A DNA stretch of 12,499 nt from Acanthamoeba lenticulata (lineage: Eukaryota; Discosea; Longamoebia; Acanthamoebidae), in the NCBI GenBank assembly GCA_002179805.1, contig NAVB01003486.1, positions 1 through 12,499 of the forward strand, given 5' to 3'. Below, piece after piece: positions 1 through 12,499 of the stretch (positions are counted from its first letter, which is position 1; every line of letters starts with the position of its first letter). Both the position numbers and the translations under genes were made by a program. The notes beneath the pieces were generated by a model, which was not told where the DNA came from, did no database searches, and saw only the letters and a list, made by a program, of their open reading frames with translations.

Positions 1-3000
1 GATTCAATAAAATAAAATGGAGAAATCAAAGTTGTTGAATGGGACGCACGGGTGAGCTGCTCGTCGAGGTGGCCGCGCGAGAGGACGCTCACGCCGCGCG
101 CGAATTGGCCAAAGTCGATGAAGCCGCCACCGCGGCCATCGGCATCGAACGCGCGACAGAGGGCCTGCGCGACGAACGGGTCGATAAACACGGCTGGCTG
201 AAGCGCCCGCGCAAAGTCCTCCCACTGCAGCTGTCCATCAACGTTCTCGTCCCACTGGTGGCGGATCATCAGCACAAGATCAGCTTGTCGACACATCGAC
301 ACAGCAGCGCATCGTGAGACTTACCTCGGCAAAGAGGCCGAACAGCGCGTCCATCTCGTCCGAGGTGACTGTAGCAGCGCCAGATCAGTGCTAACAAGGC
401 AAGGCCTTGCTCATGCAAAAGCGGGAGCAGGAGCAGGAGAGTGGGCGTACAGGAGAGGAGGGAGCCCTCGGCAAAGGCGTCCCGGTGGTCCTGCAAGAAC
501 TGGTCGAGCACGAGCGGCGCCTGGCGCAGGACGGCGGCCAGCTGAAGCTCGGTGCCAGCCAGCTGCGGCTCGTCGCCTAGTTCGATGCCGTCCTCGCGCG
601 CTCGGGCATAGCTCTCGGTCAGCGCTCGCACCACCCACGCGCTGCGGCTGCCGTGCTGTGTCGACACGCCGACGCACACGCGCGCATGCTTGTCATTCCA
701 CAATATGCACGAGACAAACATGACAGACGAGGAGACGCACCAGCCTCGGGTTGACATCGGCTGAGGAATCGACAAAGGACACGGTCTTGCCAAGCCGCTG
801 GGTCATGGCCTCAGCGATCTGGATACACGTTAGGACTTGCCCGTTGTGCAGCCCTAGCGTTCGGTTGTGAAAGGCCGTTCCAGTGTCGCACACGACCTCG
901 ACCGCCGCTGCCGCCGCATCACGCGCGTCGATCATCGTCGTCTTGGCATTCCCTGCTCCATTTTAATACGAAACAAAAGAATGAAAAACGAAACAAACCC
1001 AAAGAACGAAATGAAAAAAGAAACAAACAAATAATTCCGAAAAAAATAGGCGCGAACCGAGAGGGACGAGGAGCTTGGCTGAGGCGGGATCGTAAAGATG
1101 GAAGAGGGTCTGTAGGAAAGGGCTGCACCGCAGGAACGTGTGCGCGAGGCCGCTGTCGCGGACCACCTGCTCGGCCTCGCGGTGCATCTGGAACACGAGC
1201 GCCGTCGTCTCCGAGCGCTTGCCAGGAGGCAGCGGCCCGAAGCGGACGAGATGCGTCACGCTCTTGGCGGCCAGCGCCGCGGCCACGATGTTGGCCGTCT
1301 GCTGCTTCATGTGCTCCACCAGCGGCGGGAAAAAGACCACCTTGTCCACGCCCTCCATCGCCTGTGTGTGTGTGTGTGGACCACGGACTTGCGATCAGTT
1401 TTCCGGCCAAACGATGATGGACGTGTTGAGGCACCTGGCGGAGGGACTCGGGCTGATCGTAGTCGAGCAGCACGACCTCGCTGCCGAGCGAGACCAGCTC
1501 CTTCTTGACGCGCTCGTGCCGCACCCCGGCCCGGACGTTGACATTCCTGGCATTCCCCATGTGAGTCCTTTCCACTTCTCGGGCTTGTCAAGCGGTCAAA
1601 CGTGGAGGCGCACCGCTGGACGAGCAGCTTGGTGAGGTGCTTGCCCGCAGCCGTGGAGGCGCCGCAGACGAGGACCCGGAGGCCGCTCTGTCGGGCCTTG
1701 GCCCGCCGCCACAGCGTGGTCAGCACGCTGAGGGTCCTGTCGCGGCTCATGAAGCCCTGGAAGCACAGCTGTTGGCCCGACACGGCCGCCGCCCAGAGCC
1801 GCGTGAGCCCTCGAGAAAAGTAGCAGCGGTGGCGACAAGAGGGCGGGGACGAGGATGAGGACCTGTCGCGGGCCGGCCGGGTCGGCCGGGTTGTGGACGA
1901 CGAGCTCGATCGCGTCGGGGATGAGGAATGCGGAGCAGTCTCTCGCGATGGACTCAACGTGCTCGAAAGGGACGACCACCTTGGTCGGGCGCAGTTGGAG
2001 GATGAGGGTCGACACGAAGCAGATGTAATTCTGCGAGATGTACATCCGGCCCTGTGTGTGCATAGTTCAGATGTTTCAGATGCCTGCGTGCGCGCGGAAG
2101 GATGGCGCGCACCCGCGTGGGAATGCTCACGAGGCCCTCCTTGTAGCTGCACACGTACTCTGTTGTGTGGCCACACAAGCGCGTCAGACGTTTGCCGCGA
2201 TTGATGGTCGCCAGACGGGTAAGGTGTGCGTACGCTCGACGAGGACTTCGGTGTCGGCCAGCTGGAAGAGCTGGTGGAGCTCGCGGCTCTCCTTGGGGTA
2301 CTTGATCATGCCCAGCATGCGGGCCAGCGGTTGGCCAGACACGATGATTGGCTCCTGCATCATAAGAAATGAGTTGGCAAACATCACCCAATCACGTTTG
2401 CACAAAGGCGTTCGATCGAACCGTTTCGTGTCGCCGGTTCCAGAGAAACTCGAGGATGGACAGGCACTCGTCGCGCCGCAGGAAGCCGACAAAGATGTGC
2501 TTTTGCTTGGCCGTGCGGACGAGGATGGCGTTGGGAAAGACGAGGTGGCCCAGCGTCTTCTTGACGACGACCACCTCCTTGAACGGCAGCACCAACTGCA
2601 CCACGCCACCATAGGTCGGGCGCGATGTGAGAACGCCGCTGCCGCTCGAGGGCTGCGTTGAGTTGAGTAGCGACGTACGCTGTTCCAGCCAAAGAAGGCG
2701 CAGGGCACGTAGGGCCGGAAGCACACAAAATGCTGCCACACGTAGAGCTTGCCCCGGATGTGCGTTTGCAACGGGCCCTCCATCCCGCACAGATAGTCTG
2801 GTACAATAATAACAACACGTTCAGTTGTCCCAAAGTGCTGCTTTTCGTCGCGCGAGTGTGCGTACGCTCGATAAAGGGCTCGCCGGCGGGCAGCCCGAAC
2901 GCGTCGCGCTGGAGCTGGATCTCGCTGGCGTCTGTCCATCGAGAGATCAGAGACCAGAGATCAAATTTTGGTCAGCACTCGGATCACGGGAGAGACGAGC

Positions 3001-3540
3001 GCTTCTCACGCACCGAGTTCCAAGCTCTCGACCTCGTCCGACGGCGCAGCTGCGTCGGGGCCGGGAGCTCGACGCGGCGGCGCGGCCTGGAGGGCCAGCT
3101 CGGGCACGTCGCCGGCGTCATCCTCGTCGTCGTCTTCGACGTCTTCCTCGTCTTCTTCGCCACCGTCGTCCTGCCTGACGCTGCTGCGCGCCGACGAAGT
3201 GCCGTCATCGCCGCTGCTGGTGACCTCGTCCTGGGCCGTCGCGCTCAACGAACGCTGTCGCTCGACGCCGCTGACGCGCTTCTGCTGATGCTGTGGCATC
3301 TGCTGGAGCCCGCGCCAGAGCGACGTGATGGCCTGGTCCAGCAGCGAGCCAGCGGCGCTTTCGGTCGTGTCGGTCGCCGCGGCGGCCAGTTCGGTCAACA
3401 AGTCGGGCAGTCGGGCGAGGACCAGCTCCCAGTCGGCGTCGAGCTGCTCGCGTGTCGCGGCGACAGCGACGACGACCACGCCATGGAGTCCGTCGTTAGG
3501 CTCCGGGCCTGAAGTGCGCGCGGTGATCCGGAAGGATGGT
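1..3540 (-). CDS. GRAM-GRAM-NmrA-EF-hand protein, TBC1D8/9-like scaffold lacking the TBC domain (both ends incomplete)
   Basis: Exons on the minus strand: 3540-3014 (start uncertain), 2931-2866, 2797-2679, 2595-2422, 2354-2234, 2159-2113, 2051-1863, 1768-1614, 1546-1435, 1361-1058, 952-741, 655-451, 368-325, 254-50. The last intron runs off the window. Every junction keeps frame, giving about 826 residues numbered from 3539. Order: N-terminal segment with a TBC1D9-like stretch (about 1-80), an acidic linker (about 122-145), GRAM 1 (about 185-295), GRAM 2 (about 325-440), an NmrA-like Rossmann domain (about 444-742), and an EF-hand region (743 on). GRAM domains bind membrane lipids and EF-hands bind calcium. 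TBC1D8/9 proteins use this frame to carry a Rab-GAP domain, which is absent here. By inference it is a membrane-associated, possibly calcium- and NADP(H)-responsive protein, not a GAP. It lies downstream of the giant gene on the same strand. Confidence 0.85.
50..368 (-). other. EF-hand region at the visible C-terminal end of the GRAM-NmrA protein
   Basis: Exons 368-325 and 254-50. The segment starts with SFTSDEMDALFGLFAE, close to the segment before the EF-hands in TBC1D9 as I recall it. The first loop, DENVDGQLQWED, is a canonical 12-residue EF-hand loop with ligands at positions 1, 3, 5 and 12. The second, DADGRGGGFIDFGQ, has two extra residues and lacks the acidic position-5 ligand, so it probably does not bind calcium normally. 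The text after it (ARGVSVLSRGHLDEQL) also matches that family. The exon ends at a GTGCGT donor at 49-44, so the protein continues outside the window. Confidence 0.8.
451..1681 (-). other. NmrA-like NAD(P)-binding Rossmann domain inside the GRAM protein
   Basis: The domain covers the second half of exon 1768-1614 and exons 1546-1435, 1361-1058, 952-741 and 655-451, about 300 residues and so near full family length. It opens with LRVLVCGASTAAGKHL, a beta-strand and glycine-rich loop. A second strand follows with SLGSEVVLLDYDQPESLRQ, then AMEGVDKVVFFPPL, and the late motifs PLGNAKTTMIDARDAAAAA and FLQDHRDAF, all typical of NmrA/quinone-oxidoreductase-2-like atypical short-chain dehydrogenases. 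The loop reads GASTAAG, so the middle glycine of the usual GxxGxxG is threonine. Binding of NADP(H) is therefore likely but not certain. Such proteins act as redox sensors or reductases, and the substrate cannot be read from sequence. Confidence 0.85.
1363..1378. repeat. (TG)8 microsatellite forming a 3' splice site
   Basis: A TG repeat (CA on the minus strand) directly precedes the acceptor AG at 1363-1362, where the exon encoding AMEGVDKVV begins. It takes the place of a normal pyrimidine tract. A shorter CACACA run precedes the acceptor at 2053-2052 in the same gene. Confidence 0.85.
1769..2931 (-). other. Tandem GRAM domains of the GRAM-NmrA gene
   Basis: GRAM 1 begins in exon 2931-2866 and spans exons 2797-2679 and 2595-2422. 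Its entry motif FGLPAGEPFIEHYLCGMEG is followed by GKLYVWQHFVCF and LVLPFKEVVVVKK, the usual GRAM beta-strand order. GRAM 2 starts in exon 2354-2234 (LHQLFQLADTEVLVE), passes through the tiny exon 2159-2113, and continues in exon 2051-1863 (GRMYISQNYICFVSTL, then VVVPFEHVESI). Its last helix, FMSRDRTLSVLTTLWRR, lies in the next exon (1768-1614), just left of this range. Both copies fit the paired GRAM domains of TBC1D8/9, including the conserved Y/F-x-C-F core. Lipid binding is family knowledge and not proven here. Confidence 0.85.
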
Positions 3541-4009
3541 CTGCTCAAGACGTGCCGAGTTAGGTACCAGCTTGAGCCAACAAATGCCAACAACAAAGAG
3601 GAAAGCAGTAACTGTTGATGCGAAGCTGAATCTTGCTGCTGTGCGAATTCGTTCTGGTGCTCGAGCTCCTGCCATTGAAGAAGGAAACAGCCGACGAGTT
3701 CCTCCTGCACGAAGCAAGAGGCCTCGTGTTGGAGGGGGCAAGGTGCACCTACAGGTGGCTAAACAGGTGGCGCACCTTTCGAGACACAAAGGAAACGGCT
3801 TGTTCGAGCACCGGAACCAGTGGCGGCTGGCAGAGCGGCATTGCCCAGCAAAGAAGATCTTGCTGGTACAACAACGAAGCGAAACTCTGTTCCTCTTCGC
3901 TCTTTCGGGCGGACTCTTTCTTTTTCATTTTCAACCAAGAAAAGGAAAATAGGATAAGAAAAAGGCCGTCCCCACCGATACATGTTTGTGGTCTTAGCTC
4001 ATAAAAACA

Positions 4010-4015
4010 AATAAA
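4010..4015 (+). promoter_or_regulatory. AATAAA hexamer on the plus strand
   Basis: A perfect AATAAA lies 58 nt past the end of the plus-strand ORF at 3536-3952. It could be a polyadenylation signal for an antisense transcript, or a chance match in AT-rich sequence. I see no U/GU-rich element that clearly supports it beyond TTGTGTTG just downstream. Confidence 0.2.
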
Positions 4016-4148
4016 GTTGTGTTGAGTAGGATGATGAACACGTTATGCACACTTGTAACCATGGCAGATGCAACCATCGGTGGAGAAAGCCGCGTTTACC
4101 TGGGTGTTGGTTGTCGTCCATCATCACCAAGCTCGAGTGGCGACGTAC

Positions 4149-4207
4149 GTTCGGGAAAAGAGGTGACCTTCCCGCACCAGAGTAAGAGCAGATCCAACGG
4201 TTGACAT
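4149..4207 (-). CDS. Candidate first coding exon of the GRAM-NmrA gene
   Basis: The core gene has no in-frame ATG at its visible 5' end, so at least one upstream exon is needed. This candidate starts with ATG at 4207-4205, encodes MSTVGSALTLVREGHLFSR, and ends at a strong GTACGT donor in phase 2. That matches the phase of an acceptor (GAGCAG) just before 3540. The short peptide loosely resembles the N-terminal ALWxxER..PYF stretch of TBC1D9 proteins as I remember it. An intron-like acceptor sits 12 nt upstream of the ATG. The implied intron of 608 nt is far longer than all others here. The rival model starts at ATG 3934, with exon 3934-3776, a 71-nt intron and continuation at 3704, and is also phase-consistent. 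I slightly favour this one. Confidence 0.35.
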
Positions 4208-4219
4208 CCTGCGCAGCAG

Positions 4220-4311
4220 CTGTAGGAGACAGGTTAGCAAGGCCTTTTGACTCGGCGGATGGCGTTTAAAGAACCCACCAGATAGTTCCTTGATGACAAC
4301 AAAACGTTTAC
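4220..4311 (-). other. Intron-like element in untranslated sequence
   Basis: Read on the minus strand, this starts with GTAAACG at 4311 and ends with a classic 3' end: a CTAAC branch-site-like motif (4237-4233), a pyrimidine run and TACAG ending at 4220. The 92-nt length matches neighbouring introns. It would lie either in the 5' UTR of the GRAM-NmrA gene, 12 nt before ATG 4207, or in the 3' UTR of the giant gene. The donor is the weaker end, and an alternative is GTGGGT at 4278. Confidence 0.4.
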
Positions 4312-4366
4312 TTTTCGGGGGTTGAGGTTTGGACAAGTGTGGAGAAAGAAGAGAGAAGGGAGATCA

Positions 4367-7275
4367 TCATTTGCCGCCAGCAGCAGACGCAAGACCTCCG
4401 CGCGGCGAGAGAGGACCGGCGGGCGGGCCGCCAGCCCCCGAGGGCGAGGGCGGCGGGTTGACGATGGCGATGGGCAAGAGGTGCTCCTCGTGGAAGCCCG
4501 AGATGGCCGCCAGCAGGAGGTAGGGCAGCGAGGGCGGCACGGCGCCCGAGGTCGCCGACGCGCCCGACCGCAGACGCGAGGCCCGCAGGGCGTCGGCCAG
4601 CTTGGCCAGCCGCTCGGCCACCTCCTTGACGTGCGACGGCGGCACAAAGAGCAGCGTGCAGCCGGCTCGTCGCGCCAGCTCGGCGACGAGCGGGTGGCTG
4701 TCGACCAGCTCGCCAAAGGTGAGTAGGCACACGGACCACTCGCCCGAGGCGCTCGGGCCGCCGCTGCTGCTGTTGCCGCTGGCGCCGCCGGCACCGGGCT
4801 CGCCGCCGGCGATGATGGCGTCGGCCAGCGGGCCGGGCGCCGCGAGGCCCGCCGAGGCCACGACGGGCCCGAGGTCGACAAAGGCCAGCGCACGTAGCTT
4901 CTTGCGGTACTTGGAGACGAGCTTGGGCGTGGCCGTGAGCGCGCACGCGTGCGGCCAGGCCAGGCCGGCCTCGGCGCCGTAGACCGGGCCCTCGGGCCAG
5001 GCGCGCAGGCCGTGGAGCGCGCTGCCCACGACCCACTCGATCTGCCGCGCCTCGGCCTCCTCGTCACTCACCACCGGCCCGGCGCCGATGGCCACCGCCG
5101 CACCGCCACCGGCGCCGCCCGCGCTGCCGCCGCCGCGGTCCTTGCTTCCGCGGGCGGTCATGGGCGGCGCGGCGGCCGACTGGCCGAGCGGCAGTGCGCC
5201 GGGTCCGCCGGCCGTCAGCGCGGCCGGCGAGGGCACAGCCGATGGCGACAAGTGCGAGAAAGGCAGCACGAAGCGCGGCACCTGGATCTGGTGGCCGGCC
5301 AGCGTCGCCGCCGACAGCGACGCCACGACCGACGCCGGTCCATCGCCGCGCAGCATCTTCCGTGGTTTCTGTGGGTTGGACATGAGTTTAAACTCAGGCT
5401 AGCGGGCGGAGGGGCAGGGCACACGCACCAGGGCGGGCGAGTGGAGGAGGCCGTGCAGCGAGAACGAACGGACGACGGCGTCGTGCAGAAGAAGCTCCCA
5501 CGGTACGATCTGCAGCGGCCCGTTGCAGACCAGGAGCTATGTGTTTTGGGTGGAAAAGTTAGAATTCGTGGTATGCAGGGCCTCTGAGCGGGCGGCGGCC
5601 GTACGACAGGCGGGGTGGCCGAGATGGCGCGCGTGGAGGCCGGAAGGCCGTGCGATGACGACGATGAGGACGATGAAGACGTGAAGCGGCGGAAGCGGGC
5701 CGAGAAGAAGCCGCCGCCGCTCGAGGACTTGGCCACGGGCAGGTCCACCGGCACGATGCCCGCCGCAGGTCCGGTCTGGCCCGAGGCCGGCATGATCTCA
5801 ACCACCGACGAGAAGACGCTGGTGAGCTCGGCCAGGGCCGAGTGGGCGAGCTCGGGCAGGGGCGCGAGGGCGTCGTCGCGCTTGGGCTTGATCTTGCGGA
5901 GGAGTGGCGGCGGCGGCGGGTGGGCGACGAGCGAGGCCAGGTAGGCCAGGGTGAGCTCCGAGAAGCAGATCTTGCGCGAGGCCGCCGGCGCGCCGGCCGA
6001 GGGCGCAGTGAGGTGGGACAGCGCCGGGCCGGCCGAGTCGGCAAAGTAGAGGTAGAGCCGCAGCGGACAGGCCGGCGTGGCCGACGCGATCTCGGCAGGC
6101 GAGAAGCAGTCGGCCAGTGGCGACTTCATCAGCTCCGACAGCGGCACGAACCCGCCGGCGTTGCCCTCGGCTCCGCCCTCGGCCGACGCGTAGACCCGCT
6201 TGGCCAGGAACACGCACGGCGGCACCGCCCCGGCGGCCGGGTGATAGTGGTGGACGTCGCCAGCGCTGGCGCTGCCGCCACCGGCGGACGCCATCAGCGA
6301 CGGGCTGGTAAAGGTCGACGATTTGCTTCGCCGGTGGCCTGCCCGCTTGCCGATCTTCTCCATGGGCGTGCGCTCCCGCTCGGTCCGCTCGCCGCTCGAA
6401 CCCGGCAATGGGTGATGCACCATCTCCTGAAACATTTCGCAAAACATTTCAAAATAAGAATAATACGTAAATAAAATGAAGAAAAAAAAGGTCTTATACC
6501 TTTTGCCCGAAGAATTCGAGCCATTGCTGGAAGAGGGGATAGAAGGCGGGCGTGGCCTGCTGGAAGTGGATTCGGGGCTGCAGCTGCAGCGCCTTGGACA
6601 CGGTGCCAAACTTGTTCGCGGCCCCGCCGCCGTGCTTGCTGCCCGACGACGTCCGTTCCCGCTTCGTGTTCCTGCATGAACACGACGATGATGACATCAG
6701 CCATGACCATGACGACAATCATGATGACGATGGTGATGATGATGAAGGAGCGTACGGCGCAAACTCAGAGGGCGGGGACGAGGACAGGAGGGTGGGCGAG
6801 ACGCCGCCCTCGGACGAGGAGGAGGCGCCGCTGCCGTCGCCCGGCGCGCGGGTGTGCCAGTCGCGTTGGGTGTAGAGCTGGCGCAGGAGCGAGTCGAGCG
6901 TGGCGCCCGGACTGACGGCGAAGCTGACCGACTCGGCGTCGTCGGCCATGAGGTGGACGGACACGGCCAGCTCGCCCTTCTCCTCGCTCGACAGCGTCCC
7001 GCCCGAGGCCTCAACGCGGCCGGCCAGCTGCTGGATGCGCTTCTTGCCCGAGGCCGGCACGTAGGCTACGAGCGCGTTGTCGAGGACGAACATGTAGACC
7101 AGCTGCGACAGGGCGGGCCGCTGGGCGACGAGCTCGTTGAAGGCGTAGGCCGTCGAGCGCTTCTCCTGCAGGAGCCGCATGAACGTTCCCCGACCGCGGA
7201 TGCTCGTGCCCTTGCCCAGCTTCTTGCCAAACGCCACCTGCTGGGCCAGCAAGCTGGCTGCTGCGGCTCCGGCGC
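4367..7275 (-). other. CHAT-like (caspase-fold) C-terminal region with low-complexity insertions
   Basis: The start resembles the opening strands of CHAT domains (LVYMFVLDNALVAYVP, exon 7275-6756). A helix (LAELTSVFSSVVEIM) comes before a very CHAT-like strand-turn LLVCNGPLQIVPWELLLHD and VRSFSLHGLL (exon 5536-5429). The last exon has strands ALAFVDLGPVV, WSVCLLTFGELV and AGCTLLFVPPSHVKEVAERL, matching the order of the catalytic-His, catalytic-Cys and final strands of the fold. No HG dyad or Cys follows the expected strands. Serine, alanine and glycine tracts interrupt the domain at about 5640-5700, 6240-6420 and 4740-5230. The assignment is from remembered family patterns. Confidence 0.45.
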
Positions 7276-10200
7276 CTATCCACAACCACAAATACGGCGC
7301 TGACGTCAGCATGCACGTTGATGACGTCAGCACGAGAGAACCGGAGAGCCGTACCGCCAGAGGGCGAGGGCGGGAGGCGGCCGTTGGCCGCCTGGCGGCG
7401 GAAGAGGCGGGCCTGGTGCTGTTCGCGGGCCAGGGCGCGGAGCGTGGCCCGGTTGGTGGCCAGCATCTCCTCCTGCGACATGCGGCCGTTGACATACTTG
7501 TTTATACAGTTCTTGATCCACCGCAGCTTGCCCCAGGCCCCGCCGCCCTCGGCCCCGGCCGCCGCGGCGCCTGGCGTTGCGGCCAATGGGCCGCCCGGCG
7601 AGACGCCTGCTGACGCCATCGCACCTGGCGGCAACACCATTGGGCCCGACGACGAAGAGGACGACGAGGTAGAGGGCGCGGCGGCCGAGGAAGGCCCATC
7701 GGCGCCGGCCGCGGCCGTCAACACGGTGATGATCGGGTTCTTGTCGTCGTCCTGCGTGTGATCGGCCGCAGCGGCGCTGTCAAAGGCGAGGACGTTGACG
7801 CCATCGCGCGACGGCGCAAACGAAGGATATCGCTTCCGCTTGGCGCCCGCGAGAAAGTCCCGGCGAGGCGGGTGGCAGATCAGGCGCGTGATCTGGGCCA
7901 TGAGGCCGTTGACCGTGTCGGCCTCGGACGGGAGCCGCAGGCTGTACGATCGCTTGCGCGCGTGCTCGAGCTCGCGCTCCAGCAGCAAATAGGCGTCGAT
8001 CAGCATCAGGTTCTGTATGGATGTCGACAAAAATGAACACGTAAGCTACTCGGCCTCAACAAGAAGAACAGAAGAGATAGAGAGACCTTGTTGATGAGCT
8101 CGACGTCGAAGCAAAGCATGAAGCGGAGGAGGCGCTTGACAAGGTGCAGCGCGCGGCCGAGTAGCGTCGGCGGGGCGTTCTCGGCCATGAAGCGCGACCC
8201 GTCCATAAATAGTAGCAAAAACTGGTCTTTACATTCGCGCCAGAAGGCCAGGCTGTCCCCGATCGAGTCCTGGAGGTATCGCAGCTCGGCCATGTTCATG
8301 TAGCTGCATGAGAAAAGAATGCAAAAAGGCGGCGTCAGAAAACAGGCCAAGAATGCAAAGAATACAGAACGAAAAAAAAAGAGCCAAAAAAAACGAACCC
8401 AGTGAGCATGAGCATGACGTTGCAAGTCTCTGCGCAGATGTCGAGGCAGGTCTCGGCAGGACCCTCGATGGTGTCAAAGGAGATGAAGACGTCCTTGCCC
8501 TCTTCCTCCTCGTCCTCCTCGACAGTGCCCGGTTTGCGCGCCATGTCCGAGAGGGAGAAGGACGTCAAGCGAGCGCGCTCTTCGTAGGGCACGCGGAGCA
8601 GCGCCACGTGCACGAAGAGGTGGTCCAAGTAGACCTCGGCGATCCGCGACAGCGTCTTTGACAACTGCAGATCGTCGCCCACTGCTAGGAAGTAGTCGTA
8701 GGCCCGGTCGAGCGACGACACGGCCTCCTGCAGTACGTCGCCTGCGCCCAAAAAAAATACAAAATATTAGAAATGAAAATATTAATTAGAAAAAAGATCA
8801 ATAATTTGTTAAAACGTAATTCATAAATGTAATAATAATAATAACAATAACACGATACCGGGGCAGGTGTAGAGGGTGGGCTCCACGGTGGGCCGGCCCT
8901 TCTCGCCCAGGTAGAGAATGTAGCGGACAGTGTCATCGTCCAGGTTAGGCGCGGGGAGCGTCGTCGGCATCTGTGGCGGATTTCGAATGATTTCCTGGAT
9001 TTGAAACATTAAATAATCAGTAAATACATATATCGCATCATGGACACGAGTGTGGGGGTCGAACCTGTAGGATCTTGCCGCGGAGGTAGTAGCAGCGGCC
9101 GAGGAGGCCTAGGGACTGCTTGGAGCACGCCCGGATGGCCAGGTCGACGCAGGCCAAAGCCTCGCCGTGCAGCGAGCCCTGCAGGTAATTGGAGGCTCGC
9201 AGGTGCCAATACTTGGAGCTCTCCCTGATCATGACAAAAACCAAAAAATTTTAAAAAAATGTTATTTTTGTTTTTTGTGTTTTTTTTGATTGAAATAATG
9301 AAACGTGAAAATTTGGGGAATGTACCGCATGCCGGGATCGAACGAGGCGTCGCCGGAGCTGGAGGGGCGGAATGGGTGGAGAGGCTCCTTGGCCAGGCGG
9401 TCGAGCACGCACTGGGCCTCGGCGAACCACCGCTTCTTGACGTAGGCCTCGGCCAGGAGCATGAGAGCTCCGCGGTACTTCTCGCGGCCGAGCTCCTGCA
9501 CGTGAAGCTGGTGCAGGAGGATCAGGTGAGCCAGCAGCTCGATGCCCCGGTTGAGCTGGCCGGACTCGAGGTAGAGCGTCGCCGCGTCGAGCACCACGCG
9601 CAGCTTGCGCGCGTCGGCTCCGCCACCCTGCGCCTCCAGCAGCTCAAAGGCCATCTGCGTTCATGTGATGGTCAGCCCGCGTGCATACCACAAATTCTAC
9701 GCCACAACAGGTACCTGGATGTGGGCCTCGGCGTGGGCGTAGAGGCCGACCTCGGAGTACTGCTTGCTCAGCATGTCCGAGACGTACAGGATCTGTGTTT
9801 GGGACGGACGCGACACGTTAGCACCAATCACCTTCATTGGCAAGCGGGCGCGCAAGGAGAAGGACGAGGACCTCGTTGATCTTATGCTCCTCGGTGTACT
9901 TTTGGAGCATCTGGTGGAGGTAGTCGAGGGAGCGCGGATGGTCGTTGTGGGCGCGCGAGACCTCGGCCAGCTGGTGCAGCAGCGAGTAGTACGCTTCGCG
10001 TCGGTTGCGCAGGTGCAGGCTGACCAACGCCGAGTTGTAGGCCCTGTGCGTGTATGCGTGTGGCCAAAGCCAGCCCATGGTAAGCTTGCGCTTGCTGCTG
10101 ACACTGGTGGAGAAGATGAGGTGGCCGTACCGGATGGCGTAAATGTATTTGTAGTTGCGCATGAGGACGGCGGCATAGGCCAGGAGCGCGTTGGTGCCCA

Positions 10201-12499
10201 GCTCGGAGACGACCGCGGCGCAGCCGGCGCTGACCGGCGGACACTGGTCGAGAATGTAGACGGCCTCGAACAGGAGGCGCTCACCCAGCGCCGTCTCCTC
10301 GGCAGAGCCGGCGGCCGACTCGGCCGAGCCCACGTAGAACGTGCCCAGCGCATAGGCCGCCTTGGCCTTGTACCAGCCGACGGGCAGCTTGGGGTAGAGG
10401 TCCTGCAGGGCCTTGGCCCGCACGTCCACGTCAAACACGTCGACCATCTCCGCCTGCTCGCTCTCGTCGCCGCTTCCGCCTCCAGCCTGCTGCAATCGCG
10501 CAAGTTGTGAGCAAAAAATGAATAAAATAAGAACAAAAAGAAATTAAGAAAGAGGAAAACGCACCCCGCGAGGCGTGCCGCTGTCTTCGCCCCACCAGTC
10601 GTCGTCGTTGGCCCCGTCGCCCATGCGCTGGTCGTCCAGCTCGTCGTCCACCTCCTCCCCTTCGGACTGGTAATCGTTCACGGTGCACGTTTGTTCGTGA
10701 TACTCCGTGGCCTCCTCGCTGCGCCAGCCAATCGTCAATTATCAGATTTTACGAAATAAAAAAATTTATCAGATTTTACGAAATAAATAATGAATCGAAA
10801 AGAAAACCTTTGGAGCTTGAGAGTCGTGAGAGGCGAGATGTAGTGCAGGTGAAGGTGGAGGTCGGTGAGTGCCATGGCTTGGAGGTGGACGTTCTCGACC
10901 GCGCCGCCAAAGAAGCGCGACGGCAGCGCGGGCGCCGCGGGTCCGCCGCCGGCCGTGGCCGTGGCGCTGGTGCGCTGATAGATATCCAGGAATCGCGCCA
11001 CGACCCCGTACTTGTCTCCGCCGCCGTGATGGCTGTGCGCCTCCGTCTGAACAAGAGCTGACGTCAGCATGTCGACATTAACTGCAACGCACGGAGAAAG
11101 CGTACGTGGATGAGGGCGAGGAGGGTGGCGGCCTGCGGGAGGAACTTGCGGATGGTCTTGAGGAAGCCCGCAAACTCCTTTTCCTTGTCGTCGGTCCACA
11201 TCTTGGCAGCGAGGTGGACCAGCGACAGCACGGCGTCGACCTCCTGGCCGAGCGGCAAGGCGGACGAGGGCACCACGTACTTGCGCTCGTCGTAAGCCTC
11301 GAAGAAGTGGTGCAGCGTCGCCCAGCATTCACCCCGCCGGTTCTGGCCGTAGGTCGTGTAGGAGTAGTCGACATAGGCCCACATCCAGTCGTCCGAGAAC
11401 TGCGCGCCGCCGAGCAGGTGTCAGGCTTCTGGCTTCGAGCACGCGGCCATTACGAAAGGGAAAGACTCACCTTCTCGTATCCGGCGGCCGAGGCGCAGAA
11501 TTCAGCTGAGGTAATGGGCATGGCCGGGTCCGTGTGGACCAGCGGCCGTTTTGTGACAATCGTCTCGAGCCAAGCCACCTGCGCTCAGCATCACCAAGTT
11601 AGTCGTCACAAAAAAGAACGAAAGCGAATGAAAGAGCGAAAGCGAAGCGGTTCCGTACCAGCTCGCGCTCGTGAAGGTAACTGCCGCCATCCTTGGTGCG
11701 CAGCGAGTAGAGGAAGGTGGGCTTGGGGTACTTCTGGATCTCGACGTGCTGGTCATCGTCCGTGTTGAGCTTGTAGCGCGGCGGCAGCGTGCCCCGCACG
11801 CTCTCCTCGGTGGGCTTCGGCGCGCGGGTCATCTCGCCATCGACGTCCATCCCGTCCAGGTCCAGCCCCAGCCGTCGGCCCTGCTTAGTAAAAAATCAAA
11901 AATAAGTTCCAAAATTCAAAAACATTATGCAAAAGGAAATGAAATACGTACGGAGGGGGCCTCGCTGTCCGAGAGGTTGAGTTCGGCCTCCCAATCGGAC
12001 TCAGACTCGTTGTCGGCCTCTTCCTTGTCCTCGGCGTCTCCCGAGTCCGACTCGGCATTGCTGCGGCGCGGCGCGTGGGGCAGGCTTCGGAGGGTCGCGA
12101 GGGCCTCCTCCTTGATGGCCTTCTGCTTGATCCACAGGCACAAGACGCATACACACATGTCAGGCCATAACGCGCCCACCAGTACATTGTTCAAGCTGGG
12201 AGCGTACGAGGAGCGCGTAGCCGGCCGACCGGTCCAGGAACTTGCGCGCCAGCTCTGCAGCCCACCCGAGTGGGGGGCGGTGAGCGACAGGGCAGGGAGA
12301 AGGGCGAGGGCGGGAATCGAACCGGTGTGGCCAGAGGTCTTGAGGATTTTGCCGATCTCGAGGCAGCCCCGAGCGAGGCCGTCCCATTCCTGGGTCGGGA
12401 TGAGCGACTTCAGCTGGCCGGAGAAGAACACCACCGCCCGGAGCGGCCGGTGGGAGGCCACGGACGACACGCCCAGCTGATACTGTACACGGCCGACCA
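4367..12499 (-). CDS. Giant TPR-repeat protein with C-terminal CHAT-like domain (5' end outside window)
   Basis: I join 22 exons: 12499-12323, 12254-12208, 12122-11952, 11880-11659, 11578-11471, 11399-11106, 11046-10808, 10718-10565, 10489-10131, 10043-9872, 9792-9715, 9654-9326, 9224-9065, 8994-8859, 8741-8399, 8303-8087, 8012-7355, 7275-6756, 6671-6500, 6426-5605, 5536-5429, 5368-4367 (TGA). Frame is kept throughout, giving about 2,160 residues. The first 420 are alpha-helical and unrecognised. An acidic linker (about 420-471) precedes TPR-like repeats (about 475-1070). Low-complexity Ser/Ala/Gly-rich stretches follow, then a CHAT-like C-terminal third (about 1300-2161). No signal peptide or membrane segment is visible. 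The function is unknown. TPRs suggest protein-protein interaction and the C-terminus suggests an inactive caspase-like fold. No internal gene break is seen: exons remain in phase across the whole span. CFAP46-like proteins share the TPR plus CHAT-like plan, but I cannot establish orthology. Confidence 0.82.
6672..6755. repeat. ATG/ATC-rich simple repeat making up a whole intron
   Basis: Nearly the entire 84-nt intron between exons 7275-6756 and 6671-6500 is an imperfect trinucleotide repeat: GAT/ATG on the plus strand, TCA/ATC on the minus. It creates spurious Met- and Asp-rich plus-strand ORFs, which I ignore. The donor is GTACGC and the acceptor ATGCAG. Confidence 0.75.
7299..7331. repeat. 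Paired TGACGTCA palindromes inside an intron
   Basis: Two copies of the 8-bp palindrome TGACGTCA lie at 7301-7308 and 7322-7329, 21 bp apart, within intron 7354-7276. The first belongs to a 12-bp palindrome, GCTGACGTCAGC. It matches the CRE core recognised by bZIP factors in other eukaryotes. Function inside an intron is unproven. Confidence 0.6.
8087..10489 (-). other. TPR-like helical repeat region of the giant protein
   Basis: Exons from 10489 down to 8087 encode successive pairs of amphipathic helices with TPR-style alanine, tyrosine and leucine spacing. Examples are GWYKAKAAYALGTFYVGSA, VVLDAATLYLESGQLNRGIE, GALMLLAEAYVKKRWFAEAQ, WHLRASNYLQGSLHGEALAC and LSKTLSRIAEVYLDHLFVHV. At least six helix pairs are discernible by eye. 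The repeat units do not coincide with exon borders. Repeats of this type form protein-binding superhelices. The final part (exons 8741-8399 and 8303-8087) is helical but less clearly TPR. Confidence 0.65.
10739..10787. repeat. Two-copy direct repeat in an intron of the giant gene
   Basis: A 22-bp sequence starting TTATCAGATTTTACG occurs at 10739-10760 and again, identical, at 10766-10787 (period 27 nt). It lies inside the AT-rich intron 10807-10719. It looks like a recent tandem duplication and makes up over half of the intron. Confidence 0.9.
11057..11071. repeat. Third TGACGTCA palindrome, same 15-mer as in intron at 7299
   Basis: GCTGACGTCAGCATG at 11057-11071, inside intron 11105-11047, is identical over 15 bp to 7299-7313. 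Both sites are in introns of the same gene and share flanks beyond the palindrome core. Confidence 0.6.

Follow-up and report, generated by a model that had tools for sequence, protein, structure and literature searches.

The window studied here, a whole stretch of 12,499 nucleotides (nt) of Acanthamoeba lenticulata DNA (contig NAVB01003486.1, here C1612, in a genome of 48.48 Mb and 1825 contigs), may well carry on its minus strand the 5' half of a single gene that encodes a phosphatidylinositol phosphate kinase (PIPK) preceded by two GRAM domains, an NmrA-like NAD(P)-binding domain and EF-hands. When the window protein was searched against the genome, the same exons were found in the same order on a second contig, C228. 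There the reading frame runs 11 exons further (L021:5430-8505) to a stop codon, giving 27 exons and 1652 amino acids (aa) without an internal stop. Beyond the part covered by the window, it encodes one more EF-hand, the third, followed by a long linker rich in Ala and Glu and, at the C-terminus, a PIP5K domain. The architecture GRAM-GRAM-NmrA-EF-PIPK is predicted from these sequences with high confidence.

The two contigs were taken as alleles because both the gene and its flank are ≈96% identical: C1612 1-3948 and C228 10383-6409 share 95.5% of their DNA sequence, and the flank 4275-9276 shares 96.2% with C228. C228 contains no N. The order GRAM-GRAM-NmrA-EF claimed by an earlier sequence-only reading of this DNA is repeated in C228, so both alleles have it in a single reading frame, and an assembly chimera is therefore very unlikely for the GRAM-NmrA-EF part. 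A comparison of lengths between the alleles can be regarded as an independent test of the exons. The lengths are the same for 15 of the 16 exons, the remaining one differing by 9 bases, while 7 of the 15 introns are unequal (72/67, 82/71, 61/83, 94/96, 105/116, 82/88, and 70/72 nt in C1612/C228), six of them by a length that is not a multiple of 3. The 879 aligned codons contain 39 synonymous and 19 nonsynonymous changes (dN/dS 0.15), distributed as 9/4 in the N-terminal region, 8/0 in the GRAM domains, 17/13 in the NmrA domain (dN/dS 0.26) and 5/2 in the EF segment.

In the window, a manual splice model of the gene runs from 3841 to 50 on the minus strand and encodes 879 residues without a stop in 16 exons (3841-3776, 3704-3613, 3540-3014, 2931-2866, 2797-2679, 2595-2422, 2354-2234, 2159-2113, 2051-1863, 1768-1614, 1546-1435, 1361-1058, 952-741, 655-451, 368-325, and 254-50). 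All exon ends were picked as GT-AG, and the GT-AG agreement is for that reason not independent support. The GC content at third codon positions (GC3) of the exons is 0.84 vs a GC content of 0.55 in the introns. The start codon is probably the ATG at 3841, upstream of 3540, which was chosen rather than proven. The span of 50..3540 given for the gene by the sequence-only reading is thus too short at both ends, as the gene begins upstream of it and continues past position 1. The donor GTGCGT at 49 closes the last window exon and the contig stops inside the gene at position 1; the 49 bases that make up the start of the next intron (1..49, minus strand) are 98% identical to the C228 intron in the same place. 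An extra intron, 3612-3541 (72 nt in the window vs 67 nt in C228), was inferred because the C228 copy loses the frame when it is read through. A single exon 3704-3014 was accordingly rejected, the alleles differing there by 5 bases. The Pfam figures given below for the window were obtained with a first model of 903 aa, which is 24 residues longer than the 879-aa model at this misread intron.

GRAM was matched in two stretches, both in the window model (3.8e-32, 110.9 bits vs a cut-off of 23.6) and in the complete C228 protein (1.9e-31). GRAM domain 1 comprises approximately residues 229-348, with inferred boundaries (2422..2931, minus strand; exons 2931-2866, 2797-2679, and 2595-2422). GRAM domain 2 is the best GRAM stretch and comprises residues 375-491 in the complete allele, corresponding to 399-515 in the 903-aa model (1697..2354, minus strand; exons 2354-2234, 2159-2113, 2051-1863, and the first part of 1768-1614).

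The last helix of GRAM domain 2 (TTLWRRAKARQSG) and the first Rossmann strand of the NmrA domain (LRVLVCGASTAAG) are held by the same exon in one open frame (1614..1768, minus strand), and 154 of the 155 bases of this exon are identical between the alleles. Two genes joined by splicing between GRAM and NmrA are ruled out by this common exon. The sequence-only reading had named separate transcripts for the NmrA exons and the GRAM or EF exons as the result that would speak against it, and the common exon answers this for the GRAM2-NmrA join only. In the 903-aa model, a linker of 6 residues separates the last residue of the GRAM2 match (515) from the first of the NmrA match (522). On the other side, the homology to prokaryotic proteins extends to F789 and F797 is the first residue of the EF segment, leaving 7 residues, in agreement with the half a dozen or so linker residues first proposed for each side.

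The NmrA domain (PF05368) was matched at 1.6e-22 (80.9 bits vs a cut-off of 27) in the window model, which also matched NAD_binding_10 (4.9e-17), and at 4e-21 in the complete C228 protein. It spans residues 497-789 (473..1681, minus strand; part of exon 1768-1614, exons 1546-1435, 1361-1058, and 952-741, and part of 655-451) and contains four introns. Used as a tblastn query, it matched 67 of 72,556 plasmid records, all with less than 60% identity, and the lowest E among the matches listed was that of a Roseibium SDR family oxidoreductase (28.6% identity, 2e-16). Fourteen of the 15 matches listed cover residues 3-293 of the 293 in the query and one covers 3-239. The domain is therefore complete, as judged by the coverage of prokaryotic SDR/NmrA proteins. 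Four of the 15 relatives listed, three bacterial and one archaeal, were picked for diversity and aligned with the A. lenticulata protein. The invariant columns include G7, G13, R28, R32, and H120, the two arginines R28 and R32 of the VRAxVR motif being kept in all five proteins. The GC3 of the NmrA part is 0.85, inside the range of the six gene parts (0.77-0.91), and together with the four introns this points to an old transfer if the domain came from bacteria. The data suggest that an NmrA domain of bacterial kind with four introns became part of what would be a eukaryotic signaling protein.

Apart from the two alleles, the only other listed genome matches of the window protein at E 0.001 were NmrA stretches on C554 and C1629 with 25% identity. 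No close relatives of the NmrA domain were seen among 85 pattern matches in genome contigs, and no relatives of the GRAM2 end plus NmrA among 4 pattern matches in viral contigs.

The EF-hand segment comprises residues 797-879 (50..451, minus strand; exons 368-325 and 254-50 plus the last base of 655-451) and matches calcineurin B and NCS-1. EF-hand_7 is below its threshold in the window model (0.011, 16.5 vs 30 bits). In the complete C228 protein EF-hand_7 (30.6 vs 30 bits) and EF-hand_6 (28.7 vs 25) are both over their cut-offs, and EF-hand_8, EF-hand_1, and EF-hand_5 are under theirs. Of the matches expected by the sequence-only reading, the two GRAM domains and NmrA were thus obtained from the window itself and the EF-hand over its cut-off in the complete allele only.

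That reading had also described the protein as a TBC1D8/9 frame in which the NmrA domain takes the place of the TBC domain. On this account it would carry no kinase and would sense redox state and calcium while tethered to a membrane, a reading that we consider unlikely. Part of the description holds, as the tandem GRAM domains stand in front and are similar to those of GRAM-TBC genes of the same genome. They are, however, also similar to GRAM domains of genes without TBC, the resemblance of the N-terminus to TBC1D8/9 is not significant, and the EF stretch presented as specific to that family is the one that matches calcineurin B. The reported absence of any trace of TBC was confirmed, since no TBC family was found up to E 1 in the 903-aa window model or in the complete C228 protein. 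Nothing was found with a pre-TBC fragment of C1633 as query (Z -0.1). C116, the best TBC match in the genome, was tried as a TBC1D8/9 reference and was of no help, ankyrin-like repeats following by eye. GRAM and TBC are both present on C98, where no EF tail is evident by eye, and C1633 has GRAM domains and, by eye, a TBC start before the contig ends, with no TBC match listed on the contig. Two GRAM matches lie at 8836-10981 on the plus strand of C384 with no TBC match among those listed for that contig, and this is possibly another GRAM-GRAM protein without TBC.

The kinase domain of the C228 protein (PIP5K, PF01504) lies at residues 1380-1649 and matches 5-287 of the 288 profile positions (7.3e-78, 262.2 bits vs a cut-off of 27). 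It also matches the solved chain of PIP5K type I alpha, which we take to be the zebrafish protein, at 6.9e-38. The ATP-site lysine (FLVKT), DLKGST, DYSLLVGI, the IID aspartate, and KK-x-EH, all motifs with catalytic roles, are in register with this chain. The DLKGST aspartate is N or A in two of the solved chains listed, which we read as engineered catalytic mutants. The kinase is likely to be active. Type II kinases carry Ala where type I has Glu after KK-x, and KK-x-EH agrees with type I in the alignment.

Several observations weigh against a single gene for a kinase controlled in this way. The gene model is predicted from DNA without a transcript, with GT-AG ends by choice, and the GRAM-NmrA-EF-PIPK order is known from one genome. 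The kinase half was seen in the C228 allele only: a search of the assembly gave no 3' half for the window allele, only the last 49 bases of which match, in the C228 intron, and the kinase is for this reason predicted for the window allele. A reading as two genes is permitted by frame alone at L021:5531-5549, where a stop (5531-5533) lies in a retained intron with an in-frame ATG two bases on. The best type II kinase match (2e-35) is nearly equal to that of type I (6.9e-38), so the kinase type is likely but not settled and the product not certain. Read by eye, EF2 is irregular, and EF1 and EF3 have Asp at position 12. The complete GxxGxxG pattern of the dinucleotide-binding loop is absent from the NmrA domain, the loop (1643..1663, minus strand) reading GASTAAG in both alleles with Thr in place of the middle Gly that is found in all four aligned relatives. 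Finally, the NmrA domain shows more amino-acid change than the GRAM domains between the alleles. With the middle Gly lost as well, cofactor binding may be weakened or lost.

The first of these points would fit an artefact, in which two or three adjacent genes were read as one by a splice model made by hand from DNA alone, or in which the assembly is chimeric; the window contig does end within the gene, and the kinase is seen in one allele only. A split between GRAM and NmrA is already contradicted by the exon that GRAM2 and NmrA share, and the GRAM-NmrA-EF order recurs in two separately assembled alleles with unequal introns. The 1652 codons in 27 exons contain no stop. At the passage into the kinase half, an EF-hand match (residues 885-906) extends across the boundary between two exons at residue 902, and the third EF exon is separated from the next exon by an intron of 62 bases, which would leave no room for a gene boundary. 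An artefact is on these grounds very improbable, and the gene structure makes one gene across EF-PIPK much more likely than two.

For a single protein of this kind, the following mechanism can be proposed. The GRAM pair would hold the protein on a membrane via phosphoinositides or another anionic lipid, the NmrA domain would serve as a sensor rather than as an enzyme and bind a dinucleotide, most probably NADP(H), and the EF-hands would bind Ca2+. The NADP(H) and Ca2+ inputs could then alter how active the kinase is or where it is placed, and its product would most likely be PI(4,5)P2 made from PI4P. That NADP(H) and Ca2+ really regulate the kinase is a tentative suggestion to which we give somewhat less than even weight. 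Slightly more tentative is the full proposal that one protein might integrate lipid through the GRAM domains, NADP(H) through a captured bacterial-type NmrA domain and Ca2+ through the EF-hands into PI(4,5)P2 synthesis.

Another possibility is a genuine kinase joined to an NmrA domain whose Rossmann fold is dead, has no sensing role and provides a platform for dimerization or docking. The Thr at the middle Gly position in both alleles would fit such a fold, as would the dN/dS of 0.26, the highest of the four parts compared. This value still indicates purifying selection, however, the first and last loop glycines and both VRAxVR arginines are kept, and prokaryotic relatives can be aligned along the full extent of the domain. 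The GxxGxxG pattern is likewise not followed by fungal NmrA, and such a departure would bear on cofactor binding more than on family membership. We regard a dead fold as rather unlikely, though less so than any other alternative discussed here. The NmrA domain could conversely be a functional reductase whose activity yields or uses up a metabolite beside the kinase. Its nearest solved relatives among the 12 listed do include reductases (SimC7 ketoreductase at 9.4e-11, triphenylmethane reductases, and the oxidoreductase ytfG). Against this role stand the missing loop glycine, the low similarity to characterized enzymes and the NCBIfam matches, all nine of those listed falling far short of their cut-offs (best 33 vs 367.65 bits). 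A working reductase is accordingly quite improbable.

Individual features of the predicted protein are found in known systems. The type I PI4P 5-kinase of Plasmodium carries NCS-like EF-hands, and in PfPI4P5K and TgPI4P5KA of Apicomplexa NCS-type EF-hands are N-terminal to the type I PIP kinase, like the EF-PIPK part described here; GRAM and NmrA, both present in the A. lenticulata protein, are not mentioned in the portions of the source available to us (PMC10543664). In G protein-coupled receptor (GPCR)-PIPKs a sensory domain is joined to a PIP kinase, and such proteins have a part in Dictyostelium phagocytosis; RpkA of Dictyostelium and the oomycete GKs share the arrangement of a sensory N-terminus and a C-terminal PIPK, which the available excerpts place in amoebozoans, oomycetes and others (PMC3206951, PMC5784254, PMC12716839). 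Their sensor is a seven-helix receptor, whereas here it would be GRAM-GRAM-NmrA-EF.

TBC1D8 has two GRAM domains in front and an EF-hand behind its central domain. The same is described for TBC1D9 in the part of the source at hand (PMC7005872). The present protein shares this arrangement but differs from both in having no TBC domain, an NmrA domain in the middle and a kinase at the end. NMRAL1/HSCARG is described, in the passages available, as an NADPH sensor whose shape and location change with NADPH/NADP+ (PMC3602244). It has a full-length NmrA-like Rossmann domain, as do SimC7, triphenylmethane reductase and the present protein, HSCARG being compared by description only. Unlike NMRAL1/HSCARG and the prokaryotic reductases, the present NmrA domain sits inside a protein of 1652 aa and has the loop GASTAAG without the middle glycine.

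No paper with GRAM, NmrA, and PIPK in one protein was found in the open-licence literature as far as it was available to us, and an unremarked annotation in a public database is quite possible. Searches of the same literature for NmrA with a GRAM domain, Acanthamoeba or PIP5K gave only unrelated papers among those listed, judged by title and the opening of the abstract, and a review found for PIPK together with a GRAM domain and EF-hands describes no fusion of this kind in the passages available. Phagocytosis, on which amoebae depend for their living, is under the control of phosphoinositide kinases, as are endocytosis and actin. If the proposal is true, a PIP kinase with built-in NmrA and EF-hands would directly link redox state, calcium and PI(4,5)P2. 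Such a redox-to-phosphoinositide link would have no described counterpart in the open-licence literature seen, and would add a new type of sensor to the known protist habit of fusing sensory modules to PIP kinases.

Family matches in the genome numbered at least 13 for GRAM, at least 23 for NmrA and at least 30 for PIPK, although the NmrA list missed the NmrA domain of C228. Among the matches listed, GRAM and NmrA occur on one contig only in C1612, and GRAM and PIPK only in C228. NmrA and PIPK were both listed on C554, C1629, and C286, ≈8 to 9 kb apart and on opposite strands. On all three contigs the NmrA-like match lies in an open frame and is free of stops. C554 and C1629 both start within their PIPK gene, and the last 53 residues of the C554 PIPK are 51% identical to the C228 kinase.

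The N-terminal region of the window protein comprises residues 1-228 (3014..3841, minus strand; exons 3841-3776, 3704-3613, and 3540-3014) and has an acidic low-complexity stretch toward its end; no Pfam family reached its cut-off in this region. Among the nine long open frames on the minus strand of the upstream region (4275-12499), the only Pfam match at E 0.01 was a sub-threshold TPR_19. Between this region and the gene, ≈1.4 kb in C228 (5012-6408) stands where C1612 has ≈0.3 kb (3949-4274), with ≈96% identity on both sides.

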